A stretch of DNA of 54,162 nucleotides from the NCBI GenBank assembly GCA_017471465.1, contig JAFUTI010000040.1:1-54162 (forward strand). The letters are read 5' to 3'. The translations under genes and the position numbers were made by a program. This document shows, in pieces, positions 5,464-24,465 of this stretch (position 1 is its first letter; every line of letters begins with the position of its first letter). This DNA comes from Prevotella sp. Lineage in GTDB: Bacteria > Bacteroidota > Bacteroidia > Bacteroidales > Bacteroidaceae. Below the pieces are notes generated by a model. That model was not told the origin of the DNA. It was given only the letters and a program-made list of their open reading frames with translations, and did not search any database.

Positions 5464-5524
5464 CAAAGATACGAAAATAATTATGAATTATGGATTATGA
5501 ATTATGAATTATTTTGTATCTTTG
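5464..5524. promoter_or_regulatory. Divergent promoters nrdG / fructan regulator 1 with TTATGAA repeats
   Basis: Minus-strand TATCTTTG (complement of 5464-5471) serves nrdG; plus-strand TATCTTTG (5517-5524) serves the regulator. The 45 bases between are repeats of TTATGAA, one copy varied to TTATGGA. This matches the other divergent promoters at 3114-3166 and 45275-45334 in layout and spacing. Confidence 0.7.
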
Positions 5525-5550: not shown

Positions 5551-7107
5551 ATGAAGAAGCTATTCGCATACCTTATTATATTAGTGACGGCCTTGACTTC
5601 ATGCTCCACAAACGCGAAGAAGTACAGGATTGGCGTGTCGCAGTGCTCGGCCGACATCTGGCGTGAGAAGCAGAACGCTGAACTGCGGATGGGTGCCTAT
5701 CTGCAAGGTAACGTCGAACTGCGGTTTGCTGCTGCCTACGACAGCGACGAACGGCAGGTGCAGCAGATTGACAGTCTGGTGGCGACAGGCATCGACCTGC
5801 TGATTGTGGCGCCCAACCAGGTGGCTACCATCTCGCCCGCCATCGACCGCGCCTACGACAAGGGCATCCCCGTCATCGTGTTCGAACGGAAGACCAACTC
5901 AGAGAAATACACCGCCTTTATCAGTGCCGACAACTACGAGATGGGCCGCGTGATGGGCGAATACATCGCTACGCAGTTGCACGGGCAGGGACGCGTGATG
6001 GAGATCATGGGTCTGAAAGGCTCGTCGCCAGCCATAGAGCGGCATAACGGTTTTGCCGACGCCCTGAAGAGCTATCCTGACATCAATATCGTAGCCACCC
6101 TGCAAGGCGACTGGACGGAGGAGAGTGCCGTCAAGGCTGTCAACGGCTATAAAGGCGACCTGTCGGACCTTGACTTCGTCTTCGGCCAGAACGACCGTAT
6201 GGCGATAGGTGCCCGCCAGGCACTAAAATCAGCATCCACCAGATTCTGCGGCATCGACGGTCTGCCTGGTGAGAACGGAGGCATACAGCTGGTACGCGAC
6301 TCCATTCTCGATGCTTCCTACATCTATCCTACCCACGGCGACCAGCTGATTCAGTTGGCTATCGACATCCTGGATGGCAAGCCATACGAGAAAGAGACGC
6401 TTATGATGTCGGCACTGGTAACCCCTGGCAATGCCCGCGTGCTACTGATGCAGAACGAAGAAATCATGCGTCAGTCGGGCTATCTCGACCAGCTGCACCA
6501 GAAGGCCGACGGCTATCTCCATGAACTCGACACCCAGCGCATCGTCAACTGGATGGCCGTCGGCGTCATAGCCCTGCTGCTGCTGACCCTTGTGCTGCTC
6601 TACCTCTACCACCTCCGCAAGATTGCTCTTCAGCATGAGCGTGTCGTCAACACCTTGTGGAACATGAAGCCGGAAGACCTGCCGGCGCCGACGGAGAACA
6701 CGAACCCTGCAAAGGATGCTGAGCCAGCAGTGGACAGTGACACTACAAAAACCTTAGCGACACCTGATGAGGATGAAGACGAACCCGCCGCCGTCTCGCT
6801 GTTTATCACCCGCTTCAAGGAGGTCGTCGAGGCACGACTCGACGACAGCGACGTCAGCGTAGAGGACCTGGCCGCCGACATGAATCTCAGCCGTGTGCAG
6901 CTCTACCGCAAGGTGAAGTCCATCACGGGCTCATCGCCTGTCGAGCTGCTGCGCAACACCCGCCTGAAGAAAGCCTACCAGCTGCTGCTGACAACCGACA
7001 AGAGTGTCAGCGAGGTGGCTTACACCGTCGGTTTCACCGCTCCCAGCTATTTCACCAAGTGCTTCAAGAATGAGTATGGCATGGTGCCGGGCGAGGTCAA
7101 GAAATAA
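5551..7107 (+). CDS. Transmembrane one-component regulator: periplasmic sugar-binding domain, TM helix, AraC HTH
   Basis: 518 residues. A lipoprotein-type signal ends LTSC (Cys18). Residues ~25-325 are a LacI/ribose-binding type periplasmic domain (RIGVSQCS, LLIVAPN, GIDGLPGENGG), closest in memory to the fructose sensor of the Bacteroides hybrid two-component protein BT1754. One membrane helix lies at about 334-354, then a ~60-residue acidic/proline-rich linker, then an AraC helix-turn-helix from about 420 (SRVQLYRKVKSITG, VGFTAPSYFTKCFK). Hybrid sensors normally have histidine kinase, ATPase and receiver domains in between; none is present. It precedes susC/susD module 1 and probably activates it in response to fructose or a fructo-oligosaccharide. 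The start was set at ATG 5551 because longer frames overlap the promoter. Confidence 0.88.
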   Translation: MKKLFAYLIILVTALTSCSTNAKKYRIGVSQCSADIWREKQNAELRMGAYLQGNVELRFAAAYDSDERQVQQIDSLVATGIDLLIVAPNQVATISPAIDRAYDKGIPVIVFERKTNSEKYTAFISADNYEMGRVMGEYIATQLHGQGRVMEIMGLKGSSPAIERHNGFADALKSYPDINIVATLQGDWTEESAVKAVNGYKGDLSDLDFVFGQNDRMAIGARQALKSASTRFCGIDGLPGENGGIQLVRDSILDASYIYPTHGDQLIQLAIDILDGKPYEKETLMMSALVTPGNARVLLMQNEEIMRQSGYLDQLHQKADGYLHELDTQRIVNWMAVGVIALLLLTLVLLYLYHLRKIALQHERVVNTLWNMKPEDLPAPTENTNPAKDAEPAVDSDTTKTLATPDEDEDEPAAVSLFITRFKEVVEARLDDSDVSVEDLAADMNLSRVQLYRKVKSITGSSPVELLRNTRLKKAYQLLLTTDKSVSEVAYTVGFTAPSYFTKCFKNEYGMVPGEVKK

Positions 7108-7138
7108 CTGACACGACATATTTCCCGCTAAGAAATTT

Positions 7139-7195
7139 CGTTCATTCCTTCGCAAAAATGTTACATTGAAACATTATTTGCACGGGATGAACGAT
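7139..7195. promoter_or_regulatory. Candidate operator cluster upstream of susC 1
   Basis: Contains CGTTCAT (7139-7145, minus orientation), a 23-base site at 7160-7182 related to the one before the LamG-GH32 gene (GTTACA-TGAA-ATT-TTTGCA in common), and ATGAACGAT (7187-7195). The -7 box is at 7225. Sites of the same kind lie at 13355-13377, 18018-18080 and 28374-28428, always upstream of fructan genes. AraC-type regulators usually bind repeated half sites, so these are the likely targets of the two PBP-AraC regulators. Confidence 0.55.
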
Positions 7196-7224: not shown

Positions 7225-7232
7225 TACTTTTG
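7225..7232 (+). promoter_or_regulatory. -7 box TACTTTTG for susC/susD operon 1
   Basis: TACTTTTG matches the Bacteroidota TAnnTTTG element, 46 bases before the susC start. A small dyad, AACTC-GTA-GAGTT, lies just upstream at 7210-7222. The leader 7234-7278 and the first 32 coding bases are identical to the second susC gene (18100-18176). Confidence 0.65.
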
Positions 7233-7278
7233 TGTCAGATTTCTGAACCAATGAGTATTAACTAAAAACGTAAAGCAA

Positions 7279-10200
7279 ATGGAAAGACTCAAGAGAATCC
7301 TACTGAGTACGCTGCTCGTCTTTGCCAGTACTATAATGTACGCGCAAAGCGAAATAAGCGGAACGGTGGTCGATGAAACCGGTGAGGGTGTCATCGGCGC
7401 TACTGTGATGGAAAAAGGTACGTCGAACGGCACGGTGACCGACTTTGAAGGTAACTTCAAACTGAAAGTGAAGGCCGGCACCCTGCTGGTCTTCTCGTAC
7501 ATCGGCTACGACAAACAGGAACAACCTGCCAAGACAGGGATGAAGGTAACACTGAAGGACAACGCCGCTGAGCTGGCCGAGGTGGTAGTCACAGGTTACC
7601 AGGTGCAGCGTAAGGCCGACCTGACGGGTGCTGTCGCCGTGATGGACATGAAGAGCGCCAAGAGTGAGGGTGACCCCAATATGCTGAATTCGATGCAAGG
7701 AAAACTGCCTGGTGTGAACATCGTGACTGACGCAGCACCTGGTGGCGGCGGGGCCTCTATCCGCGTACGTGGTATGAGTACGGTCAACGGAGCCTCTCCT
7801 CTTTATATTATTGATGGCGTTGCCACTACTGAGAACCTGAATTCGCTGAATGCTGCCGACATCGAGAGCATCCAGGTGCTGAAGGATGCCTCTTCAGCCT
7901 CTATCTATGGTAGCCGCGCCGCCAACGGTGTGATCATCATCACTACGAAGAAAGGCAAGGGCGACAAGGTGACAGTGAATGTGAACTACGCTGCCTCACT
8001 TAATGTGATTGCCAAGCAGTATGAAGTGCTCAACGCCGAGCAGTGGGGACAGGCTTACTGGACGGCTAATAAGAACGCCGGACTGACGCCCTCGCATCCT
8101 TTCTACGGCAATGGCGAAACCCCTCAGCTGAAGGAATATCTGGATGCCGACGGCAAGGTAAAAGCCGGTGATACTAATTGGCAGGACGAGGTCTTTTCAT
8201 CGGCATGGACCAACAACCTTTCGGCCAGCGTGTCGAACAGCACCGACAAGGGCTCTTACATGCTTTCAGGCAACTACATCAACCAGAATGGTCTGATGAA
8301 CAACACGTTCTACCGTCGCTACACCGCCCGCATCAACACCACCTATAACATCAGTAAGGTGTTCAGCGTAGGTGAGAACCTCATGATAGCGCAGTGGACA
8401 GATCGTGGCTACGGCACCGGCGACGACCGTGGCATACCCTACACCGCCATGCGCCAGCACCCGGCCATTCCCGTAACTGACAGCAATGGTAAGTTCACCA
8501 ATCCTATGCAGCTCTCAGGCAGCGATATTGCCAACCCCGTACATGAGCTGTATAACGGACGCGACAACAGCAACGAGAGCTGGCGCATCTTCGGCAATGC
8601 ATATATAGACATCAAGCCTCTGGATGGCCTGACACTGAAGTCGAACCTCGGTATTGAGCACACCCAGTATTTCAATAAGACCCTGGGACGCCGCATTCAG
8701 CCCAGCGACATGAATAGTGTAAGCCGTGGCTACGGACAGGGCGACACCTATACATGGACCAATACCGCCAACTATCTGAAGACCTTCAGCGGTGTGCACC
8801 ACTTCAGTGCCCTGCTCGGCTCTGAGTTCATTAAGTATCGCTCTGAAGACCTGAGCGGTGCCAATCGCGACTATGCTTTCGAAGATGCGGACTACATGCA
8901 GATCGGTGCAGGCGGCGGAGAACAGACCATCAGCGGCGGCAAGGCAGAGTGGGCACTGTTCTCGCTCTTCGGCAAACTAGACTACAACTATGCTGACCGC
9001 TATCTGGTGAGTGCCACACTACGACGTGACGCCACCTCTCGTCTGCATAAGGACAACAACTCGGGTGTCTTCCCTGCCTTCTCGGCTGCCTGGCGTGCCT
9101 CAGAAGAAAAGTTCTTCCCCAAGAACAAGGTGGTCAGCGACCTGAAGATCCGTGCTGCCTGGGGCCAGAACGGTAACTCAGCCATCAGCGACAACTACGC
9201 TTATTATACCCGCTATGCTTACAACCTGCGTCACGGTTCTTACGACCTCAACGGTACGAACAACTCCGTCGTCCCCGGCATCGTAGCCGCCAGCAGTGGT
9301 AACCGCAACCTAAAGTGGGAGACCACCACCCAGACAAACATCGGTCTCGACGCCCAGCTGTTCGGTGGTGCTCTCAGTCTCTCGTTCGATTACTACTGGA
9401 AGAACACCAAGGACATGCTCACCATTCCGCCGACACTATCAGTAGAGGGTGAAGGAGCTGCCATGTGGATGAACACTGGCGAGATGAAGAACAATGGTTG
9501 GGAACTGACGATGACCTACCGCTCGCCGCAATATGGCGACTTCTCCTGGAACGGCACACTCAACCTCTCACAATACAAGAACAAGTTGGTGAAATTCAAC
9601 GACGTAGTGACCTCACAGGGTGGCGACTACCGCCTAATGGTTGGACAGCCTATGGGCGTTTACTATGGCTATGTCTGCGACGGTATCTTCCAGAACGAAG
9701 ACCAGGTATCGAACCACGCCATCCAACAGGGTAAAGGTGTCGGGCGCCTCATCTTCCGCGATATCGATAGCAATGGTGTGGTCGATGATAACGACCGCTG
9801 TATCATTGGCGATCCGAATCCTGACTTAGCCATGGGTTTGAACCTCGACCTGAACTACAAGGACTTCACACTCTCGGCTTTCTTCAGCGGTGAGTTTGGC
9901 TTCGACATCTACAACACGACACGCCGTCAGCTGGAGTTCATGCACTACGGCGGTGGCTCTTCTACCAATCATGGCGTGGACATCCTCGATGCCTGGAGCC
10001 CCACCAACACCGATGCCACCATTCCCGCTCTGACGATGGTTGACAACAACAACGAGACACGCATGTCGAACTATTTCGTAGAGGACGGCTCTTACCTGAA
10101 ACTGAAGTACCTGAAGCTGGGCTATCAGCTGCCACAGAACATTGCCAAGATGGTATATGCCTCTCATATCAGCGTTTACGGACAGGTAGAGAATATCTTC

Positions 10201-10323
10201 ACCATTACCAGCTATAAAGGTCTTGACCCCGAGGTCATGCTGGGCGGTTACGGAGCCCGTGTCGACAGTGGTCTCTATCCCCGTGCCCGTACCTTCACGC
10301 TGGGTCTGAACGTAACTTTCTAA
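7279..10323 (+). CDS. SusC-like TonB-dependent outer-membrane transporter 1
   Basis: 1014 residues, typical for SusC/RagA. Order: signal peptide (cleavage near YA-Q at 22), carboxypeptidase-D-like regulatory domain (~25-100, SGTVVDETGEGVIGA), plug domain with SusC signature (IRVRGMSTVNGASPLYIIDG, VLKDASSASIYGSRAANGVI) and a beta barrel ending in aromatic F at the C-terminus (LGLNVTF). It would import oligosaccharides, here probably fructo-oligosaccharides, across the outer membrane using TonB energy, capped by the SusD downstream. Operon: susC, susD 35 bases later, then a DUF4960-like lipoprotein. The first 77 bases around the start match the paralogue at 18145 exactly. Confidence 0.96.
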   Translation: MERLKRILLSTLLVFASTIMYAQSEISGTVVDETGEGVIGATVMEKGTSNGTVTDFEGNFKLKVKAGTLLVFSYIGYDKQEQPAKTGMKVTLKDNAAELAEVVVTGYQVQRKADLTGAVAVMDMKSAKSEGDPNMLNSMQGKLPGVNIVTDAAPGGGGASIRVRGMSTVNGASPLYIIDGVATTENLNSLNAADIESIQVLKDASSASIYGSRAANGVIIITTKKGKGDKVTVNVNYAASLNVIAKQYEVLNAEQWGQAYWTANKNAGLTPSHPFYGNGETPQLKEYLDADGKVKAGDTNWQDEVFSSAWTNNLSASVSNSTDKGSYMLSGNYINQNGLMNNTFYRRYTARINTTYNISKVFSVGENLMIAQWTDRGYGTGDDRGIPYTAMRQHPAIPVTDSNGKFTNPMQLSGSDIANPVHELYNGRDNSNESWRIFGNAYIDIKPLDGLTLKSNLGIEHTQYFNKTLGRRIQPSDMNSVSRGYGQGDTYTWTNTANYLKTFSGVHHFSALLGSEFIKYRSEDLSGANRDYAFEDADYMQIGAGGGEQTISGGKAEWALFSLFGKLDYNYADRYLVSATLRRDATSRLHKDNNSGVFPAFSAAWRASEEKFFPKNKVVSDLKIRAAWGQNGNSAISDNYAYYTRYAYNLRHGSYDLNGTNNSVVPGIVAASSGNRNLKWETTTQTNIGLDAQLFGGALSLSFDYYWKNTKDMLTIPPTLSVEGEGAAMWMNTGEMKNNGWELTMTYRSPQYGDFSWNGTLNLSQYKNKLVKFNDVVTSQGGDYRLMVGQPMGVYYGYVCDGIFQNEDQVSNHAIQQGKGVGRLIFRDIDSNGVVDDNDRCIIGDPNPDLAMGLNLDLNYKDFTLSAFFSGEFGFDIYNTTRRQLEFMHYGGGSSTNHGVDILDAWSPTNTDATIPALTMVDNNNETRMSNYFVEDGSYLKLKYLKLGYQLPQNIAKMVYASHISVYGQVENIFTITSYKGLDPEVMLGGYGARVDSGLYPRARTFTLGLNVTF

Positions 10324-10358: not shown

Positions 10359-12041
10359 ATGAAAGCAATATATAAAGTCTGCGCCATCTGCGCAATCAGT
10401 GCGCTCACTGCTTGCAGCGACCAGCTCGACCTTGCCCCACAGGGTGAGTTCACCGCTGAGCAGCTGACTGATGAGAGTATCGAGGGTCTGATGTCATCTG
10501 CCTACCAAGGTCTGGAGGCCCACTTCTTTGACGACAACAATGCCGCTTTCGCTGGTCCCATCACCAACTGGGTCTTCGACGTGCGCTCTGACGATGCTTA
10601 TAAAGGCGGCGAGGGTGTGTCGATGGAGGCTAATATTCACCAGTTGGAGATTCAGAACATCACCAGCGACAATGCCACCTGTCTGAACAAGTGGGAGAAC
10701 AACTACTTAGGTATTGCCCGCGTACATAAGGCTATGCTGGCTATCCAGGATGCCACTGTCAATGACAAGGCCTCCCTGCTGGGTGAACTGAAGACACTTC
10801 GTGCCTGGTACTATTTCGATCTGAACCGTATCTTCAAGAGTATTCCTTACTTCACGGAGAACGATGATCCGAAGACCATCACCAACGGCAATAAGAACCG
10901 CGAGGAGATCTATGCTGCCATCAAGGCCGACCTGGAGGATGCTTACAACGCTATGCCGGAGAGCCAGGACCAGCCCGGACGCTTCAGCAAGTATGTGGCT
11001 GCCGCCCTGCTTGCCAAGGTCAACGCCCAGACCGCCTCTTGGTCAGAGGTAGAGAAATGGGCCGACGTGGTCATCAACAGTGGCAAATACCAGCTCTACG
11101 ACAATTTTGCCGACATGTCGAAGCTCGAGTTCAACAATAAGAAGGAGAGCATCATGGCCATCCAGTTCTCAACAGCCAACGACAATATCCACATCAACTT
11201 CTGCAACCTGCTGAACACCACACGCTCCGAGGGTAATGTCTTCGGGTCGGGCGATGACTTCTTCCTGGGTTCGCAGAATCTGGTGAACGCTTTCCGAACC
11301 GACCCAGCCACAGGCCTGCCCTACCTGGACGGCACGTTCAACAAGGTGAATGTCACCGAGAACTACGCCGGCACACTCGACCCGCGTCTCGACCTCACCG
11401 TAGGTCGTATCGGACTTCCCTTCCGTGGTCATCTATACACAATGGGATGGTGTCGCGACTATAACACATACGGTGAGTACTCCGGCAAGAAGGGACTCAT
11501 AGACCCCTCCAGTCCCGATATGGTACAGGGCTTCCCCTGGGGTGCCAGCGGTCTGAACTTCAGCCTCATCCGCTATGCTGACATCCTGTTGCTGAAGGCA
11601 GAGGCTCTCGTTGAACAGGCCACAGGCAACAATGCTGCTGAAGATGATAAGCTGGTGGAGGCCCGCACACTGGTTAACCAGATACGTCAGAAGGCTGCCC
11701 GCAGCGTTGACGGCAACTACTCACCTATAGACCTCGACCCTGCCAAGGCCGACTACTTCGTAGGACTCTATCCTACCGACTGGGACGGCAACCTCTATTG
11801 GACCAAGGAACGTGCCCGCATGGCCGTGCGCTTTGAACGTCGTCTGGAACTTGCCATGGAGGGTCAGCGCTGGTTCGACCTCGTACGCTGGGGTGTGGCT
11901 GTCGAGACTATCAACAAGTACATGCAGGAAGAGTCTACCCTTCGCCCTTACTATGTAGGAGCCAGTCTGACAGAAGACGAGATTTACCTGCCTATTCCTA
12001 TCTCACAGATTGAGAATTCCAATGGACTGTACAAGAATTAA
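10359..12041 (+). CDS. SusD-like surface glycan-binding lipoprotein 1
   Basis: 560 residues with lipobox LTAC (Cys19). Starts with the SusD/RagB pattern (TACSDQLDLAPQGEF) and has the conserved tail segments ARMAVRFERRLELAMEGQRWFDLVRWG and LPIPISQIENSNGLYKN. It would sit on the cell surface as the lid of the SusC pore and bind glycan chains. The gap to susC carries a stretch (about 10325-10375) closely resembling the susC-susD junction of module 2 at 21252-21295, supporting module duplication. Substrate, probably a fructan, is inferred from neighbours. Confidence 0.95.
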   Translation: MKAIYKVCAICAISALTACSDQLDLAPQGEFTAEQLTDESIEGLMSSAYQGLEAHFFDDNNAAFAGPITNWVFDVRSDDAYKGGEGVSMEANIHQLEIQNITSDNATCLNKWENNYLGIARVHKAMLAIQDATVNDKASLLGELKTLRAWYYFDLNRIFKSIPYFTENDDPKTITNGNKNREEIYAAIKADLEDAYNAMPESQDQPGRFSKYVAAALLAKVNAQTASWSEVEKWADVVINSGKYQLYDNFADMSKLEFNNKKESIMAIQFSTANDNIHINFCNLLNTTRSEGNVFGSGDDFFLGSQNLVNAFRTDPATGLPYLDGTFNKVNVTENYAGTLDPRLDLTVGRIGLPFRGHLYTMGWCRDYNTYGEYSGKKGLIDPSSPDMVQGFPWGASGLNFSLIRYADILLLKAEALVEQATGNNAAEDDKLVEARTLVNQIRQKAARSVDGNYSPIDLDPAKADYFVGLYPTDWDGNLYWTKERARMAVRFERRLELAMEGQRWFDLVRWGVAVETINKYMQEESTLRPYYVGASLTEDEIYLPIPISQIENSNGLYKN

Positions 12042-12062: not shown

Positions 12063-13235
12063 ATGAAAAAAATATATTTTGCAATCATAGCTGCACTAAG
12101 CTTCTTCACTGCTTGCTCTGATGTAGAATTTGAAGAAGCCACCTACTCAGAGGCTGTCAGCAACCTCGTTGCCGACTATCAACAGGGTAGCCGTCAGGTG
12201 ACTCTCCGCTGGGACAATCCTTCGATGCAGGGTCTGTCGGGCATCCAGATTATCAAGGATGACGCTGATATCACCAATATCGATGAGGTGGTCAACAGCT
12301 ACTTTATCAAGAAGGCGCCGACGAATGTCGACGTCAGCTACACCGTGAAGGCCCGCTACAGCGACGGCCGTGTCTCTGAGGGTCAGACCGTACGCTTCAA
12401 CATTGCCTATGAGGTACAAAAAGGCGCTTCAAAGATAGCAATGCTCGTACCCGACGACTACGCCACGTCTGACGACGAGAAGGATGCAGTGGCCTGGTTC
12501 AAGAAAAACTATGTTGACACGAACAAGGGCGTTTTGGTGACACCTGCCACCATCGACGAACTCGACATCGAGAAGCAGTCGGCCTGCTGGGTGATGTGCG
12601 ACCGCATCGGCATCGAGAAGGGCTGGCAAAATCTGCCTGGCAACCTCGCATCGAACGCTACCATTGAAGCTCTGAAAGCTTTCACGGCTGACGGCGGCAA
12701 CCTCCTGCTGACCAACCACGCCACCCAGCTTACCGTAGCCGTTGGCCGCATCGATGAGGCATACGCTCCTGGCATTTATGGCAATGGCGAGGGTGGACAG
12801 AACAACGACGTGTGGGGTTCACAGCCCATCATCGGCAATGCCGAAGGGCAGATCTACGACCACTCCGGTCACGACATCTACTGGGGTATGGATTTCGTCA
12901 GCGGTCTGTACGAGCGCAGCATCTACTGCTTCGAGGGTGCCGGTGTGAAGGGTGACCACAACTGTATGTGGGACCTGAATGCCTACGGTTTGGCTCCTAA
13001 CCCCAACGTTGTGAAGACATGGGAAGAGACCACCAACTCCACCGTCCTTGGTACCTGGAACCATGTGGTCGACTACTGCTGCGCCGGTATCATCGACTTC
13101 GCTCCTACCACTACCTTCGCAGGCCGTGTCCTCGCCGTGGGTCTCGCTGCATACGAGTGGAATATCAGTGGTACGAACCAGTACCAGTCACAGTTGGAGC
13201 GTTTCACCAGCAACTGCATTGGTTATTTGAAATAA
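12063..13235 (+). CDS. DUF4960-like surface lipoprotein (candidate fructan-binding protein) 1
   Basis: 390 residues, lipobox FTAC (Cys18). Residues ~30-115 look like an FN3-type beta sandwich (RQVTLRWDNP...YTVKARYSDGR). The rest has an alternating alpha/beta, amidotransferase-like pattern (IAMLVPDDYA, WVMCDRIG, NLLLTNHATQ) that I associate with DUF4960, a domain found in fructan utilisation loci next to SusC/SusD, where such proteins bind glycan at the surface (BT1761-like position). It is the last gene of operon 1 and is followed by a strong terminator. The domain name is recalled, not searched; the surface-binding role is inferred. Confidence 0.75.
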   Translation: MKKIYFAIIAALSFFTACSDVEFEEATYSEAVSNLVADYQQGSRQVTLRWDNPSMQGLSGIQIIKDDADITNIDEVVNSYFIKKAPTNVDVSYTVKARYSDGRVSEGQTVRFNIAYEVQKGASKIAMLVPDDYATSDDEKDAVAWFKKNYVDTNKGVLVTPATIDELDIEKQSACWVMCDRIGIEKGWQNLPGNLASNATIEALKAFTADGGNLLLTNHATQLTVAVGRIDEAYAPGIYGNGEGGQNNDVWGSQPIIGNAEGQIYDHSGHDIYWGMDFVSGLYERSIYCFEGAGVKGDHNCMWDLNAYGLAPNPNVVKTWEETTNSTVLGTWNHVVDYCCAGIIDFAPTTTFAGRVLAVGLAAYEWNISGTNQYQSQLERFTSNCIGYLK

Positions 13236-13354: not shown

Positions 13355-13377
13355 GTTACAATGAACGATTTTTTGCA
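13355..13377 (+). promoter_or_regulatory. Candidate regulator site upstream of LamG-GH32
   Basis: GTTACAATGAACG followed by ATTTTTTGCA. It closely resembles the site at 7160-7182 before susC 1 and those at 28374-28428 before the GH43/GH32 pair, and lies about 43 bases upstream of the -7 box TATCTTTG (13420-13427). Confidence 0.6.
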
Positions 13378-13446: not shown

Positions 13447-15729
13447 ATGAAACCGAAAAAACATCTGCTTATTGTATTGACAACAGCCCTGACCACAATG
13501 GCAGCAGCACAAACATCTGTAGCCCATTTCGACATGTCGCTGAAAAGCGGAAAGATAACGGAACAGGTGTCGAACGTGGACTATGCGGTTGCCTCGCAGT
13601 TGCCTGCCTGTAGTAAGGCTGGAGTCGACGGTGAGGCTCTGCGCTTCGACGGCTATTCTAATTATGTACGTGCCGGTCTGCCCAGCGGACTGAGTAAAGA
13701 GGCGCTGACGGTCAGCGTGGTGTTGGCGGCAGAGACCTACCCGATGATGCAGGTGGATGTGGCGGAGACCACACCGACCTTTGCCACCATCTGCGGCAAC
13801 CTCGATGAAGACGGGAAAAAAGGCATTGCTCTTGAACTATCGTCACAGGGTGACCTGCGGTTTCGCTTTGGCTCTGCCACAGGATTTCTGATGACTGTCA
13901 CAGGTGATAAGAAACTGCCACGAGGACAGTGGTGCCAGTTGACAGCAGTACTCGACAAGGCCGGCAATGCCGCCACTCTCTACTTGGACGGTAAGAGCAT
14001 TGGCACCAGCCGTATGAGTCGTGCTGACATCGCACACTCCACCACTGATTTCTATATCGGCAAGAATGTCACAGAGAAAAAGTCGGGGCCGTTCCTTATC
14101 AATACGTTCTGCGGACTGATTGACGATATCCGTATTACTAATGAAGTCACAGATTTTACGCTCATCGATCCCATAGACTTCAGCTCTTTTCCACGTCCTG
14201 ACTTCAACTACCCTGCTGAGCGTTATGCTGCTTCCCTTTGGCGCCCACAGTTCCACGGTATGCCTTCAGGTTCGTGGACGAACGAGACACATGGTTTAAT
14301 CTGCAGCGGTGGCCGTTATCACGTGTTCTTCCAAAAGAATGCCAATGGTCCCTATATGTCGTGCCTGCACTGGGGACACATCTCCAGCGAGAACCTCTAC
14401 GACTGGACGGAAGAGCCGATAGCCATCTATCCAGGAGAATCGTATGATATCAAAGGCTGCTGGAGCGGCTGCGTGTATGAAGACGGAGGCGACACCTATA
14501 TATTATATACTGCGGTGGATAATGCCAAAGCCCGCATTGCGCAGGCTAAGGCGAAGGACGGCAATCTCATCGAGTGGGAGAAACAGGGCGTCATCATCGA
14601 CGGACGACCCGCAGGACTCTCCGATGACTTCCGCGACCCCTATTTCTTCACAGCAAACGGAGAGAAGTACATTATCGTCGGCACGAGTAAGAATGGTGTA
14701 GGCGCCTGCACGCTCCACCAGTATAAGAACGGTGCGTGGACCAACGACGGCACCATCTTCTTCCAGGGAGGCAATGCCAACCAGCACGGCACGTTCTGGG
14801 AGATGCCCAACATCACAGACATGGGCAATGGCAAGTGGCTCTTCACCTGTACCCCGTTGAATACCGGTGTTGGCGTTCGCACACTCTGCTGGGTGGGCAC
14901 CATTGGTTCGGACGGCAAATTTATTCCTGATGGAAATGGTGTGCAATACCTTGAAATGGGCGGCATCAGCCGCGACGGCTACGGTCTGCTCTCACCATCC
15001 ATCTTCCAGAAGGACGGCAAGACGCTGCTGCTGGGTATTGTTCCCGACAAACTGCCCACTCAGAACAACTTCGAGATGGGCTGGGCACACAACTACTCGC
15101 TGCCTCGCGAACTGTCGTTGGATGGCAACGGTCGTCTTGTTCAAAAGCCCTACAGCAGACTGACCGCCATGCGCACTCAGGCGACAGTAAGCGTCGAGGA
15201 ATCGTTACTTGCCTCAAAACCGCTGGTTAGCGGACGTCAGATAGAACTGCTGGGTGAGTTTGCGCCAACAACAGGCACTTGTGGCTTCCGATTTCTGAAG
15301 AACGCCTCGCTGACGTACGATGCCGACACCAAGAGGCTGACGCTCGACCTGACGGGAGTTGGTCGCACAAGCAACGACAATGGAGCCTATAACGGCATCT
15401 ATGCCACCACGCTCACCGAACCGCTCACGAAACTCCATCTGTTCCTTGACGACAGTATCCTCGACATCTTTGTCAACGACAAGTGGGCCTATAGCGTCAG
15501 AGTGTTCCCCACCGACGCCACTGCCATTGAGACCGAGGTCTTTGCCACGGCATCCACCCCCGTCAAGGTCAGTGCCTGGGCACTCGATGCCAAACAGACC
15601 ACCGGTATAGCTGCAACCACTCTTCAGGACAAGGCATACGATGCGTACTATAATCTTTACGGTCTTAAGGTCGATAAGCCATGTAAAGGTATCTATATCA
15701 AAAACGGGAAAAAGTATGTTTGTCGCTGA
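13447..15729 (+). CDS. Secreted GH32 fructanase with N-terminal LamG-like domain
   Basis: 760 residues. A signal peptide is cleaved near MAAAQ, without lipobox. Residues ~22-225 form a LamG/concanavalin-like sandwich, then a GH32 five-blade propeller and C-terminal beta sandwich. GH32 motifs are present but altered: the nucleophile motif WMNDPNG reads WTNETHG, with Glu280 at the Asp position; RDP is intact (Asp397); the acid/base motif is FWEMPN (Glu452). The C-terminus (YNLYGLKVDKPCKGIYIKNGKK) resembles tails common on secreted Prevotella proteins, possibly linked to type IX secretion. It probably cleaves inulin or levan outside the cell. The stop overlaps the following DUF1573 gene by 14 bases. 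Confidence 0.88.
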   Translation: MKPKKHLLIVLTTALTTMAAAQTSVAHFDMSLKSGKITEQVSNVDYAVASQLPACSKAGVDGEALRFDGYSNYVRAGLPSGLSKEALTVSVVLAAETYPMMQVDVAETTPTFATICGNLDEDGKKGIALELSSQGDLRFRFGSATGFLMTVTGDKKLPRGQWCQLTAVLDKAGNAATLYLDGKSIGTSRMSRADIAHSTTDFYIGKNVTEKKSGPFLINTFCGLIDDIRITNEVTDFTLIDPIDFSSFPRPDFNYPAERYAASLWRPQFHGMPSGSWTNETHGLICSGGRYHVFFQKNANGPYMSCLHWGHISSENLYDWTEEPIAIYPGESYDIKGCWSGCVYEDGGDTYILYTAVDNAKARIAQAKAKDGNLIEWEKQGVIIDGRPAGLSDDFRDPYFFTANGEKYIIVGTSKNGVGACTLHQYKNGAWTNDGTIFFQGGNANQHGTFWEMPNITDMGNGKWLFTCTPLNTGVGVRTLCWVGTIGSDGKFIPDGNGVQYLEMGGISRDGYGLLSPSIFQKDGKTLLLGIVPDKLPTQNNFEMGWAHNYSLPRELSLDGNGRLVQKPYSRLTAMRTQATVSVEESLLASKPLVSGRQIELLGEFAPTTGTCGFRFLKNASLTYDADTKRLTLDLTGVGRTSNDNGAYNGIYATTLTEPLTKLHLFLDDSILDIFVNDKWAYSVRVFPTDATAIETEVFATASTPVKVSAWALDAKQTTGIAATTLQDKAYDAYYNLYGLKVDKPCKGIYIKNGKKYVCR

Positions 15730-16391: not shown

Positions 16392-16399
16392 TATCTTTG
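16392..16399 (+). promoter_or_regulatory. -7 box TATCTTTG for fructan regulator 2
   Basis: An exact TAnnTTTG element 25 bases before ATG 16425. An AGGTGA sequence lies nine bases before the start codon and may help ribosome binding. No TGAACGAT-type site is seen upstream, so the regulator gene itself may not be under fructan control. Confidence 0.65.
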
Positions 16400-16424: not shown

Positions 16425-17978
16425 ATGAAAATATTTTGGGGAATGTTATGGGTGGGTACCTTGATGGGGACTTTCGTTTCCTGTACAAACGAACACACCT
16501 ATAAGATAGCAGTCTCGCAATGCGGTTCTGGGCAGTGGCGCGACAAGGTGAACAACGAAATGCTGGCCGCACAGCACCTGTACGAGCAAAACGTAAAAGT
16601 AGAAGTCATCGAAGCCCACGACGATACAGAGCGACAAATTCGCCAAATAGACAGTCTGGCGAATACCGACATTGACTTGCTGGTTGTGGCTCCCAACGAG
16701 GCCGCTCCTGTATCCAAAGCCATTGCTAAAGTCTACGAGGCCGGAATTCCGGTGATTTACTTCGACCGAAAAGCTGACGCCACAGCATATACAGCTTTCA
16801 TCGGTGGAAATAACTTTGAGGCAGGGGAGGCATCTGCCAACTATGTGTTAAGCCTTGTTGATCAGTTACCTGTCAATGGGCACAAGCCAAGAGTAGTGGA
16901 GATAACAGGAGCTATGTCGTCATCGCCAGCGCAGGAACGCCATCAAGGTTTCCTTAGTGTAATGAAGGAGCACGGCGAACTAGAATACGCCTGCATGGAG
17001 GCCAACTGGACATCAGACTCGGCCTATCAGATTGCGAAAGAGCAGATAGACGCTGAAAACCCACCTATTTTCTTCTGCCATAACGACGGTATGGCTACAG
17101 GTGTCTATAAGGCCATTGTCGAGAAATGTGTAGAAGGGCAGGTGATGGTGACAGGCATTGATGGACTGCCCAACGAAGGTATCGAATATGTGCTGTTGGG
17201 ACATCAGGTAGGCTCCTACGTTTATCCTACACATGGCGAGCTCGTGGTAAAACTGGCACTCGACATTCTGACAGGTCAGCCTTACGAACGCGAAAACGAG
17301 CTACAAGGCATGATGGTAACTCCAGAGAATGCCAAACTCATGGCACTAAACAGCAAAGAACTGATTCGCCAGAACTATGACCTCATAACCATACAAGACA
17401 AGTTAGAGGCTTATTTTGGACTGTACGACACACAACACAAGGTGCTAATAGGTAGTTTTATAGCCATCATCCTTTTAGCGGTAGCGCTTATCATGATGTG
17501 GCGGGCATACATTCAAACGCGCCGGACTATCCGTCAGCGTCAGGCGTTGAATGAGGAAGAGACATTGTTCTACACAAATACTGGCAGCCGCACGCTGGTT
17601 CAGGTGTTCGAGACGCCAAAAGAGGAGTTGCCCGTTCCCAAGTCACAGGACACCATCTTTGCAGAGACGCTCAATGAAGCCATCCGTAAGAATATGTCGA
17701 ACCCCAACCTAAAGATGGAAGAGTTGGGCGAAGAAATTGGCTTAGGGCGTGTACAATTATATCGCAAGGTTAAAAGCATAACAGGTCTCACGCCCGTAGA
17801 GCTGCTTCGCAAGATTAGGCTGCAGCAAGGCTACGTTCTGCTGACTACAACCACCAGAACCGTTGCAGAAATAGCCTTTGAGGTGGGATTTAACACTCCT
17901 GGCTACTTCTCTAAATGTTTCAAGGAGCAATACGGAAAACTGCCTGGCGCGCTTCGTGCTAATGAAGAAAGTCAATAA
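16425..17978 (+). CDS. Transmembrane one-component regulator 2: sugar-binding domain, TM helix, AraC HTH
   Basis: 517 residues, paralogous over its length to the protein at 5551. Lipoprotein-like signal ending FVSC (Cys20), periplasmic binding domain ~25-325 (KIAVSQCGSG, LLVVAPNEAA, TGIDGLPNEG), one membrane helix at about 341-362, a linker, then AraC HTH from about 415 (GRVQLYRKVKSITG, VGFNTPGYFSKCFK). Again there is no kinase or receiver domain. It stands directly before susC/susD module 2, so each module has its own regulator. Differences in the binding domains suggest they sense different fructan products. An upstream in-frame ATG at 16374 precedes the -7 box and is rejected. Confidence 0.88.
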   Translation: MKIFWGMLWVGTLMGTFVSCTNEHTYKIAVSQCGSGQWRDKVNNEMLAAQHLYEQNVKVEVIEAHDDTERQIRQIDSLANTDIDLLVVAPNEAAPVSKAIAKVYEAGIPVIYFDRKADATAYTAFIGGNNFEAGEASANYVLSLVDQLPVNGHKPRVVEITGAMSSSPAQERHQGFLSVMKEHGELEYACMEANWTSDSAYQIAKEQIDAENPPIFFCHNDGMATGVYKAIVEKCVEGQVMVTGIDGLPNEGIEYVLLGHQVGSYVYPTHGELVVKLALDILTGQPYERENELQGMMVTPENAKLMALNSKELIRQNYDLITIQDKLEAYFGLYDTQHKVLIGSFIAIILLAVALIMMWRAYIQTRRTIRQRQALNEEETLFYTNTGSRTLVQVFETPKEELPVPKSQDTIFAETLNEAIRKNMSNPNLKMEELGEEIGLGRVQLYRKVKSITGLTPVELLRKIRLQQGYVLLTTTTRTVAEIAFEVGFNTPGYFSKCFKEQYGKLPGALRANEESQ

Positions 17979-18017: not shown

Positions 18018-18080
18018 TGAACGATTGTTTCATGAAACAAAATTCTTAAAGGCCGAACGATAATTGACATTCGTTCGGCC
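18018..18080. promoter_or_regulatory. Operator region of susC 2 with a perfect 10-10-10 dyad
   Basis: TGAACGAT at 18018-18025, and GGCCGAACGA (18051-18060) separated by ten bases from its exact reverse complement TCGTTCGGCC (18071-18080). The dyad ends ten bases before the -7 box TACTTTTG (18091-18098), so it lies upstream of transcription and is more likely a protein-binding site than an RNA hairpin, although it could also end transcripts of the regulator gene. The core GAACGA is shared with the other candidate sites. Confidence 0.65.
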
Positions 18081-18144: not shown

Positions 18145-21100
18145 ATGGAAAGACTCAAGAGAATCCTACTGAGTACACTGTTCATCTTTACATGTACTAT
18201 AATGTACGCGCAGGAGATAACAGGAACAGTAGTCGATGAGACCGGTGAGCCTGTGATTGGAGCCACCGTGAAAGAGAAAGACACGTCGAACGGTACGGTG
18301 ACCGACTTCAACGGAAACTTCAAACTGAAAGTGAAAACCGGCGCTACACTGGTGGTGACCTATATCGGTTATGATCCAGTAGAGGCTGTTGCTGCCCCAG
18401 GCATGAAGATTCAGTTGAAGGAGGACCAGCTGCTGCTGAATGAAGTGGTGGTGACGGGCTATACCACCCAGCGCAAAGCCGACCTGACAGGTGCTATCTC
18501 AACGGTGAGTCCTTCAGACTTAGCCAAGCAGAACGAGAACAACCCTATTAAGGCTATGCAGGGGCGCGTGCCAGGCATGAACATCCAAGCCGACGGTAAC
18601 CCCTCGGGAGCCGCCAGTGTCCGCATCCGCGGTATCGGCACACTGAACGACAACGACCCGTTGTACATCATCGACGGTGTGCCTACGAAGGCTGGCATGC
18701 ACGAACTGAACGGCAACGATATCGAGTCAATTCAGGTGCTGAAGGATGCCGCTTCAGCCAGTATTTATGGTAGTCGTGCTGCCAACGGCGTGATAATCAT
18801 CACGACGAAAAAGGGTAAGGAAGGTACGGTGAAAGTAAACTTCGATGCCAGCATAGCAGCCTCGCTCTATACGAACAAGATTGAAACGATGAACGCATCG
18901 GAGTGGGGACGGGCTTATTGGCAGGCATCTGTCAACGACGGTCTCAATCCTAATAACAACAACTTAGGCTACAACTTCGATTGGCGTTATGACCAGAACG
19001 GCAACCCCGTGCTGAACAAACTGTCGATGAACATGTTCCTCGATGAGAATGCCACCGTCCGTACAGGCGATACCGACTGGTTTGACGAGATTACCCGCAC
19101 GGGCATCGTCCAGCAGTATAACCTCTCAGTGAGCAATGGCTCGGAGAAAGGACACTCATTCTTTTCAATAGGCTATTATGACAACAAGGGTACCATCAAG
19201 GAGTCGCAGTTTAACCGTCTCTCAGCCCGTGCCAACAGCGAATACAAGCTGTTCGATGGTCTGGTGAGCATCGGCGAGAATTTTACGATGAACCGCACAC
19301 AGGGCACCGATGCCCCTGGCGGCATACTAGAGAACGCCCTGGAGTTCAATCCCAACTTCCCCATCTATGCCGAGAACGGAGAGTTCGCACAGGCCCTCGG
19401 TGCCTATTCAGAGCGTGAGAACCCATTGAGCCTGCTCTATAACAATAAGGATAACCAGTACACCCAGTGGCGTTCGTTCGGCGATGTGCACCTGAGCATC
19501 ACGCCGCTGAAGGATTTCTCTATCCGCACCACCTTGGGTATGGACTACAGCCAGAAGCAGCAGCGCTTCTTCACTTACCCAATAGCCAACGGTAAGGTAA
19601 TGCGTACAGAGACGGCTGCCGAGAACAAGCAGGAACACTGGATGCGCTGGATGTGGAACGCCATTGCTACCTATAATCTGGAAATTGGCAAGCATCGTGG
19701 CGACGCAATGATTGGTATGGAGGTGAATCGTCAGGACTACAACTGGACCAGTGCGAAGCGCTATGAGATGAGTATTCTGAATACCGACTATATGTGGCCG
19801 TCGGCAGGCAGTGGCAGGCAGTTAGCCGAAGGTTCTGGCGACGGTTTCTCTTTGGTATCGTTCTTCGGAAAGGTGAACTATACATACAATGAGAAGTACC
19901 TTGCATCATTGACCATCCGGCGTGACGGTTCGAGCCGTTTCGGTAAGAACAACCAGTATGGTACGTTCCCATCGGCCAGCGCCGGTTGGAGAATCAGCGA
20001 AGAGAAGTTCATGAAGAGTTTCAGCTGGCTTGACAACCTGAAGCTGCGCTACTCTTGGGGACAGACGGGTAACCAGGAGATCTCTAACACCGCTCGCTAC
20101 ACACTCTATCAGGCCGTTGTCTCTACAGGCCTCTGGGGAAGTGGTCAGGCTGGTACGTCCTACGACATCGCCGGCAGCAATGGTGGTTACGCTCTTAACA
20201 ACGGCTACGTCCGTACACAGCGCGGCAACGAGGACATCAAATGGGAGACAACCACCCAGCATAACATCGGTATCGACTTTGCACTGCATCACAACGAGAT
20301 CTATGGCGGCTTCGACTGGTTCCACAAGCTGACCAGCGACATTCTGCTCCCGATGGAAGGTATTGGCGCTATGGGTGAGGGTGCCTCACAGTGGATCAAT
20401 GCCGGTGAGATGAAGAACATCGGTTGGGAACTGTCGGTAGGCTATCGCCACACGTTGGCTAACGGCCTCTCATGGGACATCAACGGTAATGTCAGCCGCT
20501 ACTCCAACGAAATAACAAAACTGCCTGCAACGGTGGCTGCCAATGGTAAGTTCGGAGGCAATGGTGTGAAGAGTGTTATCGGTCATCCAATGAGTGCCCA
20601 AGTAGGTTACATCGCCGACGGTATCTTCAAGAGCCAGGACGAGATTGACAATCACGCCACACAAGAAGGGGCTGGCTTGGGGCGCATCCGATATAAGGAC
20701 CTGAACGGCGACGGCATGATTACTGAGGCCGACCAGGACTGGATATATGACCCGACACCCGACTTTACTTGGGGCTTAAACATCTACTTGGAGTATAAGA
20801 ACTTCGACTTCACCATGTTCTGGCAAGGCGTTCAGGGTGTGGATGTCGACTGCCGCGGCTATAAGTCGCAGACCGACTTTTGGGCCAATACAAACATCAA
20901 TGTACCTTATCTGAACAAGGGCGTCCGCGTGCTCGATGCATGGAGCCTTGCTAATCCTGACAGTGACATCCCTGCACTGACGACCACCGACTCCAACAAC
21001 GAGGGGCGCGTATCGTCCTACTATATTGAGAATGGTTCTTTCGTCAAACTGCGCACCATCCAACTGGGATACAACGTACCAGATGCCTTCTCCAAGAAGC

Positions 21101-21249
21101 TACGAATGGACCGCATCCGCCTCTACGTCTCTGCCCAGAACCTGCTGACCATCAAGAGCAGCAAGTTCTCTGGTGCCGATCCTGAGAATCCTGGATTCAA
21201 CTATCCTATTCCTCTGAACATGACATTCGGTTTGAACGTGAACTTCTGA
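18145..21249 (+). CDS. SusC-like TonB-dependent outer-membrane transporter 2
   Basis: 1034 residues. Signal peptide (YA-Q), regulatory domain ~24-100, plug with the SusC signature (IRIRGIGTLNDNDPLYIIDG, VLKDAASASIYGSRAANGVI) and a barrel ending LGLNVNF-like (FGLNVNF). The N-terminal 90 residues strongly resemble module 1, while the extracellular parts of the barrel differ considerably, which would fit a different oligosaccharide. It forms an operon with susD 2, a DUF4960-like lipoprotein and a GH32 lipoprotein. Confidence 0.96.
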   Translation: MERLKRILLSTLFIFTCTIMYAQEITGTVVDETGEPVIGATVKEKDTSNGTVTDFNGNFKLKVKTGATLVVTYIGYDPVEAVAAPGMKIQLKEDQLLLNEVVVTGYTTQRKADLTGAISTVSPSDLAKQNENNPIKAMQGRVPGMNIQADGNPSGAASVRIRGIGTLNDNDPLYIIDGVPTKAGMHELNGNDIESIQVLKDAASASIYGSRAANGVIIITTKKGKEGTVKVNFDASIAASLYTNKIETMNASEWGRAYWQASVNDGLNPNNNNLGYNFDWRYDQNGNPVLNKLSMNMFLDENATVRTGDTDWFDEITRTGIVQQYNLSVSNGSEKGHSFFSIGYYDNKGTIKESQFNRLSARANSEYKLFDGLVSIGENFTMNRTQGTDAPGGILENALEFNPNFPIYAENGEFAQALGAYSERENPLSLLYNNKDNQYTQWRSFGDVHLSITPLKDFSIRTTLGMDYSQKQQRFFTYPIANGKVMRTETAAENKQEHWMRWMWNAIATYNLEIGKHRGDAMIGMEVNRQDYNWTSAKRYEMSILNTDYMWPSAGSGRQLAEGSGDGFSLVSFFGKVNYTYNEKYLASLTIRRDGSSRFGKNNQYGTFPSASAGWRISEEKFMKSFSWLDNLKLRYSWGQTGNQEISNTARYTLYQAVVSTGLWGSGQAGTSYDIAGSNGGYALNNGYVRTQRGNEDIKWETTTQHNIGIDFALHHNEIYGGFDWFHKLTSDILLPMEGIGAMGEGASQWINAGEMKNIGWELSVGYRHTLANGLSWDINGNVSRYSNEITKLPATVAANGKFGGNGVKSVIGHPMSAQVGYIADGIFKSQDEIDNHATQEGAGLGRIRYKDLNGDGMITEADQDWIYDPTPDFTWGLNIYLEYKNFDFTMFWQGVQGVDVDCRGYKSQTDFWANTNINVPYLNKGVRVLDAWSLANPDSDIPALTTTDSNNEGRVSSYYIENGSFVKLRTIQLGYNVPDAFSKKLRMDRIRLYVSAQNLLTIKSSKFSGADPENPGFNYPIPLNMTFGLNVNF

Positions 21250-23058: not shown

Positions 23059-24465
23059 ATGAAGATTATGAAAACAAAGATATTCAACATCATAGGTCTT
23101 ATCTGCTTTGTCTGCGGCTTCGCAGCATGCTCTGATGACGACCGTACGGGAAGCATTGATGTCAGCGGAGAATGTCTGGTTCAGGAGTTTGTGCTCAACA
23201 ATCAGTATACCGCTACCATTAACACTGAAAAGCGTCTTATTAAGGTCAAGGTTCCTGTAGACTTTACCGCGAAGGACAACATGGAGATAACCAGCCTCAC
23301 CGTTTCTGCTGGTGCAAAGAGCAACCTGAAGGTGGGCGACCACATTAATCTCGTGGCCGACAAGACCCTGCACGTCACCAACGGCGACCTTGTCATGGAC
23401 TATCAGGTGGCTGTGCGCAATGATGAAGCTATCATGACGCTCTTCCTCTTGGGAGGCGTGAAGGGTGCCATCAACCAGACTGACAAGACCGTGACCGTCT
23501 CAGTGACGGCCAATAGCGGTATCGACCTTGCCAATGCCACCTTTGAGGTGGAATGCAGCGAGGATGCCACGTGCAGCCCTGCCAGCGGCACGAAGGGCAA
23601 CTTCACGGAGCCCTTCCAGATTACCCTGACCGACAATACGGCTTCGAACACTTACACCGTCTATGCCGTCATGATCGATAAGCCCAAGGCGCTGTTCGTT
23701 GGCGAAGCTGAGAATGTGGAGATGCTCAACGACGAAGAGAAAACTGCCGCCAAGTGGCTTACGGGCAACATTGCCGGTTCGGCTTACGCTTCCTGGAGCG
23801 ATATAGCCAATGGTAACGTGTCGCTCGACGAGTGCCGGTTCATCTTCTTCCATCGTCATTGCTCGTCCTACGGCAACTACAACGGCTTTGCCGAGGCTGA
23901 GACTGCTGCCATGTCGGCACTTGTTAAGATGAAGGAGTGCTGGCAGCGTGGCGTAGGCTTCGTACTGGGCCGTTCGGCAGTGAACTATGCTATTGCCTTA
24001 GGTGCCATGCCTGAGGACGCTTATCCCAACAACGTCTGGGGTGGCGGTGGCGGTGAAGGCTCCGACCTCATGGGCGATGATCCCTGGCACTTCTACGCCT
24101 ACGACATCACACACCCGCTGTGGAAGAGTCTGAAGACCTATCCGGGTGCTGCCGAGGGTGCCGTCTATACCCTCGACAAGGATTACACCATCTGTAACAC
24201 CACGTCGCAGTACGGATTCTGGGGCGAATACGAGGGTCGCGAAGGTGCAGTAGAAGCGAAAACCGGCGGACGTGCCCTGGGTGGCGACAATAGTGTCTCT
24301 TCATGGGAACTGAAGGCTGCCAACGGTGAATATGGCAAGGGTGGTGTTATCTGTTTCGGTTCTGGACTCTTTGACTGGAACTCACCGACCCCCTACACGT
24401 CTAACTACCACGACAACATGGGCACCATCATGCTCAATGCCTATCACTATCTGACAGGAGAGTAG
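23059..24465 (+). CDS. DUF4960-like surface lipoprotein with Ig-like repeats 2
   Basis: 468 residues (467-465 if ATG 23068 is used), lipobox FAAC. Residues ~35-215 look like two DUF5018-like Ig repeats (EITSLTVSAGAKSNLKVGD; VTVSVTANSGIDLANATFEV...TYTVYAV). The C-terminal ~250 residues match the layout of the module 1 lipoprotein (KALFVGEAE, VGFVLGRSAV, GGVICFGSGLFDWNSP), which I associate with DUF4960. It probably binds fructan at the surface next to SusC/SusD 2. The stop codon abuts the GC-rich repeat at 24464. Confidence 0.75.
   Translation: MKIMKTKIFNIIGLICFVCGFAACSDDDRTGSIDVSGECLVQEFVLNNQYTATINTEKRLIKVKVPVDFTAKDNMEITSLTVSAGAKSNLKVGDHINLVADKTLHVTNGDLVMDYQVAVRNDEAIMTLFLLGGVKGAINQTDKTVTVSVTANSGIDLANATFEVECSEDATCSPASGTKGNFTEPFQITLTDNTASNTYTVYAVMIDKPKALFVGEAENVEMLNDEEKTAAKWLTGNIAGSAYASWSDIANGNVSLDECRFIFFHRHCSSYGNYNGFAEAETAAMSALVKMKECWQRGVGFVLGRSAVNYAIALGAMPEDAYPNNVWGGGGGEGSDLMGDDPWHFYAYDITHPLWKSLKTYPGAAEGAVYTLDKDYTICNTTSQYGFWGEYEGREGAVEAKTGGRALGGDNSVSSWELKAANGEYGKGGVICFGSGLFDWNSPTPYTSNYHDNMGTIMLNAYHYLTGE

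Follow-up and report, generated by a model that had tools for sequence, protein, structure and literature searches.

Kinase-less membrane-spanning regulators in a Prevotella fructan locus, probably derived from hybrid two-component proteins

Two genes of a Prevotella fructan locus encode proteins in which a periplasmic sugar-binding domain (PBP) is connected by a membrane helix and a short linker to an AraC DNA-binding domain. According to domain content, relatives and the traces left at the joints of the proteins, both genes probably specify one-component, membrane-spanning regulators of the locus that arose from a hybrid two-component protein (HTCS) of the BT1754 type by removal of its middle part, a reading to which we assign a probability of roughly three in four. 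The genes are located in a stretch of 54,162 nucleotides that was analyzed as a whole and is referred to as the window.

Domain composition and genetic context of the two regulators

The presence of two kinase-less fructan sensors in the window was confirmed. Both genes are open frames that encode proteins of 518 amino acids (copy 1, P0001) and 517 amino acids (copy 2, P0002); their coordinates, listed in Table 1, agree exactly with those of the sequence-only reading. The Pfam search yielded matches to Peripla_BP_4 with E-values of 1e-45 for copy 1 and 2.7e-38 for copy 2, matches to HTH_18 with 1e-20 and 2.6e-18, respectively, and matches to HTH_AraC in both proteins. The order of sensor, membrane helix, linker and AraC domain that had been read from the sequence was confirmed. 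HisKA, HATPase_c and Response_reg were found in neither protein, the linkers included, among matches up to an E-value of 1, a limit below which the HMMER filters already remove most matches above approximately 0.1. About 400 residues of phosphorelay are missing from both copies and the frames are intact, as the sequence-only reading had stated. Beyond the signal sequence, one hydrophobic helix per protein was detected. The best match to a solved structure was 2x7x for both copies (E-values of 1e-81 for copy 1 and 6e-52 for copy 2), an entry that is labelled just 'sensor protein' in the search output and that we take to be the periplasmic domain of the fructose sensor BT1754; the kinship to BT1754-type proteins that had been proposed is thus supported.

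Both copies share with HTCSs the Peripla_BP_4-type sensor, the C-terminal AraC domain and the neighbouring susC/susD and GH32 genes, but they are devoid of the HisKA plus HATPase_c kinase and of the receiver domain. Since the kinase and the receiver were looked for and not found, the proteins are not regarded as HTCSs; a sensor and a DNA-binding domain in one membrane-crossing chain, with no phosphotransfer domain, characterize them as one-component regulators. The own genome of the window yielded 19 HATPase_c matches and is therefore not without two-component systems. Ratios of dN/dS were about 0.02-0.12 for the sensor and 0.02-0.17 for the AraC part of copy 1 (four pairs with high to saturated dS), so that both parts look to be under purifying selection; for copy 2 a ratio was obtained for the sensor part only, namely 0.12 from one pair.

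The signal sequence of copy 1 is closed by a lipobox-like Cys18 (positions 5602-5604) that is a cysteine in 138 of 143 sampled relatives, and the N-terminus may therefore be lipid-anchored, in which case the sensor would combine a possible lipid anchor with a membrane helix. Cys32, which is part of an SQC motif (5644-5646), is a cysteine in all 143 relatives.

The window contains two susC/susD pairs, two DUF4960 genes, three GH32 genes and the genes for an MFS transporter and a PfkB-family sugar kinase, a neighbourhood that was classified as a fructan locus. Each regulator gene stands before its own susC/susD pair, as had been noted, with gaps of 171 nt and 166 nt to the respective susC gene. 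The DUF4960 protein encoded at 12063-13235 is perhaps a surface glycan-binding protein, as suggested by the position of its gene. The last 54 nt or so before both susC genes (7225-7278 and 18091-18144) are near-identical, as are the starts of the two coding regions, which look as if one had been copied from the other.

Table 1. Features of the regulators and of the surrounding fructan locus in the window
Feature	Position	Strand	Basis
Copy 1, kinase-less fructan sensor, PBP-TM-linker-AraC	5551..7107	+	ORF, Pfam, structure match
Copy 1, signal sequence with lipobox-like Cys18	5551..5604	+	Cys in 138/143 relatives
Copy 1, periplasmic sugar-binding domain, aa 24-330	5620..6540	+	Pfam; 2x7x best solved match
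Copy 1, membrane helix, aa ~333-355	6547..6615	+	hydrophobicity
Copy 1, junction VVNTLWN and acidic, Pro-rich linker	6643..6801	+	
Copy 1, AraC DNA-binding domain, aa 418-518	6802..7104	+	Pfam
Copy 2, kinase-less fructan sensor, 517 aa	16425..17978	+	ORF, Pfam, structure match
Copy 2, membrane helix, aa ~338-358	17436..17498	+	
Copy 2, remnant of HisKA H-box helix, aa 376-387, His lost	17550..17585	+	profile scoring, alignment
Copy 2, aa 388-397, probably a remnant of the last receiver helix	17586..17615	+	profile scoring, alignment
Copy 2, AraC DNA-binding domain, aa 412-517	17658..17975	+	Pfam
-7-like box TATCTTTG upstream of copy 1	5517..5524	+	
-7-like box TATCTTTG upstream of copy 2	16392..16399	+	
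Putative operator half-site, susC1, one mismatch, 88 nt above -7 box	7137..7144	-	
Putative operator half-site TGAACGAT, susC1, 37 nt above -7 box (7225-7232)	7188..7195	+	
Putative operator half-site, susC2, distal, same orientation as proximal site	18018..18025	+	
Putative operator half-site, susC2, one mismatch, 37 nt above -7 box (18091-18098)	18054..18061	+	
Putative operator half-site, GH32 gene at 13447, 58 nt above -7 box (13420-13427)	13362..13369	+	
Putative operator half-site, GH32 gene at 28514, 87 nt above -7 box (28471-28478)	28384..28391	-	
Putative operator half-site, GH32 gene at 28514, one mismatch, 58 nt above -7 box	28413..28420	+	
susC homologue 1	7279..10323	+	TIGR04056
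susD homologue 1	10359..12041	+	
DUF4960 protein (first)	12063..13235	+	
GH32 enzyme with concanavalin-like (LamG) domain	13447..15729	+	
susC homologue 2	18145..21249	+	
susD homologue 2	21278..23026	+	
DUF4960 protein (second)	23059..24465	+	
GH32 with BT1760-like C-terminal domain	24544..26175	+	
GH32 enzyme	28514..30199	+	
MFS transporter	30248..31411	+	
PfkB-family sugar kinase	31415..32299	+	

Relatives, joints and descent of the stripped proteins

Homologues of P0001 with any architecture were detected in 277 of 398 genomes of the same genus (E<=1e-60), which argues against a chance origin of the architecture. The relatives were sampled as 143 distinct proteins drawn by similarity to copy 1, and hence with a bias towards it; they comprise 100 stripped proteins, 30 proteins without the ATPase that keep HisKA and the receiver, and 13 complete HTCSs. 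The assignment to architectures was based on motifs and length and was confirmed by Pfam for all 18 proteins checked, i.e. the complete proteins L144 and L155, the ATPase-less proteins L026, L087, L130, L153, L161 and L189, and the stripped proteins L020, L030, L032, L074, L141, L151, L162, L172, L184 and L185 (L184, L185 and L189 are located outside the 143-protein sample). The AraC domain is reached in frame by 99 of the 100 stripped proteins, the frame of L090 stopping before it; G508, a listed stripped match, has an inner stop. The stripped form L074 belongs to the closed genome of the isolate Prevotella communis E15-14, which makes an assembly artefact less likely. Almost all of the best 80 of 525 named loci bear the label Prevotella, Prevotellaceae or Bacteroidales, and many of the 80 originate from rumen or other ruminant samples.

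An order-wide search detected a homologue in 44 of 393 genomes (E<=1e-40), and outside the genus the frames measured 907-1014 amino acids in 36 of the 52 matches listed. Ten long proteins from outside the genus were inspected, and kinase motifs were present in all ten: L195, L196 and L198 carry all four relay motifs, L197 and L199 all except the receiver motif, and in L154-L156, L159 and L160 one or other motif was missed by the simple patterns, L155 being complete according to Pfam. The ATPase-less proteins contain the phospho-accepting histidine and the receiver aspartate in 30 of 30 cases each, with glutamate (20) or glutamine (10) following the histidine. Lacking the ATPase, these proteins are unable to phosphorylate themselves in cis. 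HisKA parts are able to act as phosphatases without an ATPase, as in EnvZ, and the retention of both residues would fit either a phosphatase role or phosphorylation in trans; the ATPase-less stage may accordingly dephosphorylate its own receiver under the control of the sugar or accept phosphate from another kinase.

Additionally, in other families of the same taxonomic order, the same kind of sensor was observed in fusion with a SpoIIE-type phosphatase (L186 by Pfam; L187, L191 and L192 by eye) or with a simple histidine kinase (Pfam match in L188). Three paralogous sensors, namely a stripped copy-1-type, a stripped copy-2-type and an ATPase-less third one, lie within about 20-25 kb on G034:C37 and G059:C7.

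For the analysis of the joints, each joint profile was scored at every offset of the relatives, with column permutations as control. The alignment of the kin of copy 2 showed that the stretch NEEQTLFYTN runs into the H-box of ATPase-less relatives (NQEQTLFYTNASHQLKTPL in L174), followed by a gap over the remaining HisKA and the receiver, and that it resumes at the last helix of the receiver. The profile of the N-terminal side scored highest (19.1, the next being -13.4) where the nearest ATPase-less kin have their H-box, which is the best of 340 offsets and was equalled by none of 500 permutations; the same offset was best, though less strongly, in the wider sets, with 27 of 500 permutations as good for the copy-1-like kin and 53 of 300 for full HTCSs. 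For the C-terminal side, the best offset in the nearest kin fell on the end of the receiver (2 of 1000 permutations as good), and in the wider sets the same offset was best without reaching significance (216 and 70 of 1000). On this evidence, the kin of copy 2 keep half of the phospho-histidine box fused to a receiver-end-like stretch.

In copy 1, the helix that follows the membrane matched the coil of the ATPase-less kin (0 of 500 permutations), and no match to full HTCSs was obtained for this N-terminal profile at the corresponding place. The motif VVNTLWN on the C-terminal side was tried as a remnant of the receiver end and was not accepted: the two best of 330 offsets fell there, but permutations were often equal, with 216 of 500 for the copy-1-like ATPase-less kin, 173 of 500 for the remaining ATPase-less proteins and 23 of 300 for full HTCSs. 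Since this joint is not significantly receiver-like, the breakpoint of copy 1 is unproven, and VVNTLWN is only suggestive of a receiver remnant. Relay remnants, taken as a mark of HTCS descent, were detected on both sides of the copy 2 joint in comparison with the nearest kin and on the N-terminal side only of copy 1.

The number of transitions was deduced from trees of the two conserved domains. The AraC-domain tree is based on 133 rows and 111 columns, with 19 starred (well-supported) of 129 branches and several long branches; ten rows were left out, i.e. five full rows with a truncated AraC domain and L155, L159, L160, L031 and L090, in which the domain was not recognized. Each main joint corresponds to one clade of this tree, the copy 1 joint with 79 rows (support 92), the copy 2 joint with 12 rows (support 88) and a third joint with four rows (support 100), and four other stripped proteins contribute three more changes. 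This amounts to six changes between stripped and not stripped, three of which are forced by starred branches. The copy 1 clade is nested in a group of 98 rows together with ATPase-less proteins (support 91), 15 of the rows keeping relay parts, and the copy 2 clade lies inside a starred set of 15 rows with three ATPase-less proteins, a nesting also seen in the PBP tree. When three states were distinguished, the PBP tree required 17 changes and the AraC tree eight; in the PBP tree, closely related sensors are combined with a stripped back half in some cases and with an ATPase-less one in others. This mismatch suggests that sensors and back halves were exchanged, which renders the order of events uncertain, and the 17 changes were rejected as a count of excisions, as each main joint forms one clade on the AraC tree. 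Outside the tree, L184 and L185 from two other families show yet other joints, and a third family code, g113, comprises a copy-1-type joint (L183) and copy-2-type joints (L193 and L194).

The sequence-only reading had left it open whether the phosphorelay was lost or never present. Full-length frames are usual outside the genus, ATPase-less intermediates exist and the kin of copy 2 keep the edges of the relay, all of which argues for a loss, and the second half of that statement was given up. The opposite course, in which a simple PBP-TM-AraC protein was ancestral and the kinase and receiver were inserted later, appears very improbable to us: it could draw on the view that one-component regulators are commonly held to be older than two-component ones and on the interleaving of stripped and ATPase-less forms in the PBP tree, neither tree having been rooted by the programs, but an insertion would not leave half an H-box and a receiver-end-like stretch at the joint of the copy 2 kin, the ATPase-less forms with HisKA and receiver are hard to derive in this way, and the predominance of full-length frames outside the genus speaks against it as well. 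We lean towards the wider reading that within one Bacteroidales sensor family relay proteins repeatedly became direct transmembrane regulators, at the six points of the best AraC tree and perhaps two more in other families, by way of an ATPase-less stage that was maybe kinase-independent and with the same DNA code on the output side. If the output code is indeed unchanged, the relay would be dispensable for the wiring.

Putative operator, sugar pocket and mode of control

The motif TGAACGAT was present in 53 of 60 non-redundant regions behind copy-1-type genes, with about one expected. The geometry of the putative operator is fixed relative to a TAnnTTTG box, with a reverse half-site located 86-89 nt and a forward half-site located either 36-38 or 57-59 nt above it. 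Among the regions with susC behind, the pair was found in 49 of 60 for copy-1-type genes, 5 of 6 for full HTCSs, 5 of 13 for ATPase-less proteins and 3 of 6 for other stripped proteins, and the copy-2-type regions contain the forward site at +37 in 11 of 12 cases and the reverse site at the pair distance in 0 of 12; shuffled controls gave 0.02 or less per group. Both spacings of the half-sites, about 30 and 51 bp and two helix turns apart, are already present with full HTCSs. A wider scan covered up to 800 nt and did not require susC. Of the 30 ATPase-less rows, eight contained the strict pair, three the plus site only and 18 neither, and one ends early; seven of the 18 negative rows have less than 440 nt of downstream DNA, and when two mismatches and a less strict -7 box were allowed, the pair appeared in four of the 18. 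The 13 full rows yielded one pair and seven with neither site, and five end early, longer copies of which (L143-L147) contain the pair in all cases. The putative operator is thus common to all three architectures, yet absent from some loci.

When the forward-site rule was applied to the window, four sites were obtained, located before the two susC genes and before the GH32 genes at 13447 and 28514, and no site was found elsewhere in the window on either strand (Markov controls: mean 0.07, with none of 100 reaching four). A reverse partner is present at two of these sites (7137 and 28384), a second forward site takes its place at susC2, and no reverse partner was found for the half-site at 13362. 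The GH32 gene at 28514, with its putative operator, is followed by the MFS and PfkB genes. With one mismatch, the +37 pattern occurs at seven sites in the own genome, two of them in the window (reversed-pattern control: 0); coincidences of half-site and -7 box at 134 other distances, pooled, amounted to four in the window.

A conserved element of about 165 nt was noticed behind the regulator gene in ten loci, for instance at L087:12273-12465 and additionally in L063, L081, L089, L094, L097, L100, L102, L123 and L137. It is possibly an undescribed RNA, in which strongly paired stretches are joined by a terminal GGTGTGGAC/GTCCACACC hairpin, in most cases with T's behind it; two-sided changes were counted at four of 40 predicted pairs. 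A comparison with Rfam gave no gathering-level match for L087, L094 and L123, and none that was believable for L087 at E<=10. The core pattern of the element is absent from the genome of the window.

The positions of the sugar pocket were presumed by analogy to the ribose-binding protein. Arg113, Arg164 and Asp236 are present in 143 of 143 relatives, Trp188 in 141 and Asn214 in 133, so that the predicted sugar-contact positions are largely kept across all three architectures. Position 112, beside a contact arginine, is an aspartate in copy 2 and 13 of 13 full proteins, whereas it is a glutamate in copy 1, in 82 of 100 stripped and in 20 of 30 ATPase-less rows; the ligand may therefore differ, and the two copies may prefer different sugars.

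Direct transmembrane control is the best reading of these data, since the relay is gone and the output side, represented by the putative operator, is kept; the ligand, DNA binding and mechanism are deduced from sequence. As no phospho-acceptor is left, transmission across the membrane would have to rely on a conformational change or on the association of protomers. The binding domain would close upon fructose, or a related sugar, set free in the periplasm, and the packing of two protomers would be altered. Via the membrane helix this change would reach the AraC domains, and transcription would be activated once these have bound to the paired TGAACGAT half-sites. The linker of the copy-1-type proteins measures between 11 and 85 residues in the 79 proteins with this joint; it is acidic and Pro-rich, with many Glu, Asp, Pro, Ala, Ser and Thr residues and hardly any aromatic ones. 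This variability makes control by proximity or pairing of the AraC domains likelier than a rigid rotation of the helix, and we infer that the linker serves as a flexible tether. The corresponding stretch is constant in the copy-2-type proteins, measuring 31 or 32 residues in all 12, which would permit a rigid coupling.

A variable, disordered-looking linker is also a poor conductor of conformational change, as would suit stripped proteins that bind DNA constitutively at the membrane and leave induction to another input, such as partner proteins or catabolite control, and not to the sugar. We regard this as unlikely, as the whole periplasmic domain is kept, its dN/dS is low, and Arg113, Arg164, Trp188 and Asp236 are found in 100 of 100 stripped rows. 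A further possibility, that the stripped proteins are mere remnants without activity or with an interfering effect and that a full HTCS or an ATPase-less paralogue runs the locus, seems quite unlikely. Genomes G034 and G059 do have three neighbouring paralogues each, a few broken copies (L090 and G508) exist, and a full copy could be missing from the genome of the window, which is 63% complete; in the available part of this genome, only the two copies match over the sensor, and the low dN/dS of copy 1 in its sensor and AraC parts, the in-frame AraC domain of nearly all sampled stripped proteins and the location of each window gene before its own susC with a putative operator speak against remnants.

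Comparison with known systems

One-component regulators are usually seen as the ancestors of two-component systems. The proteins described here would provide a well-sampled natural series in the opposite direction, with complete, ATPase-less and stripped versions that share the same putative operator, and this series makes it testable what a phosphorelay adds if a direct connection of the sensor to the DNA-binding domain is sufficient for function. The stripped proteins may also offer a compact fructan switch that needs no kinase, and in Prevotella-type genomes a large class of locus regulators would escape surveys that recognize such regulators by their kinase.

In ToxR and CadC, which had been cited as models, the DNA-binding domain is N-terminal and cytoplasmic, and the signal crosses the membrane without phosphotransfer. 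The comparison holds for the proposed way of working, but as these proteins are generally described they have a reverse topology and unrelated domains, and SusR is the nearer functional precedent. The ATPase-less relatives (L026, L087, L130, L153, L161 and L189) have the same sensor, helix and AraC domain, and some share the putative operator; they differ by the retention of HisKA and the receiver in the absence of the ATPase.

BT1754 (HTCS_Fru), described in the sections considered of PMC3404733 and PMC3878776 as the fructose-sensing HTCS of Bacteroides thetaiotaomicron, resembles both copies in its periplasmic sensor of the same class, its one membrane helix, its AraC output and its place before a fructan susC/susD locus, and differs by the kinase and receiver domains in between. 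A description of kinase-less or excised HTCS regulators was not found in searches of a library of open-licence papers, and the sections considered of PMC3404733, PMC10766802, PMC3878776, PMC11107044, PMC11784079, PMC5061871 and PMC9239204 contain no kinase-less HTCS descendants. For the inulin locus of Segatella copri, no contiguous HTCS gene was observed and the role of an upstream homologue is called unclear in the part of PMC11784079 considered. The nearest known way of working is that of SusR, which according to the section considered of PMC3878776 is a single membrane protein with a periplasmic sensor and a C-terminal cytoplasmic DNA-binding domain that activates the sus locus. Both copies share with SusR the combination of a sensor and a C-terminal DNA-binding domain in one membrane protein; the DNA-binding domain of SusR is described there as having no significant similarity to other known ones, whereas the proteins of the window contain a standard AraC domain and are probably of HTCS descent, and by this description they are set apart from SusR.
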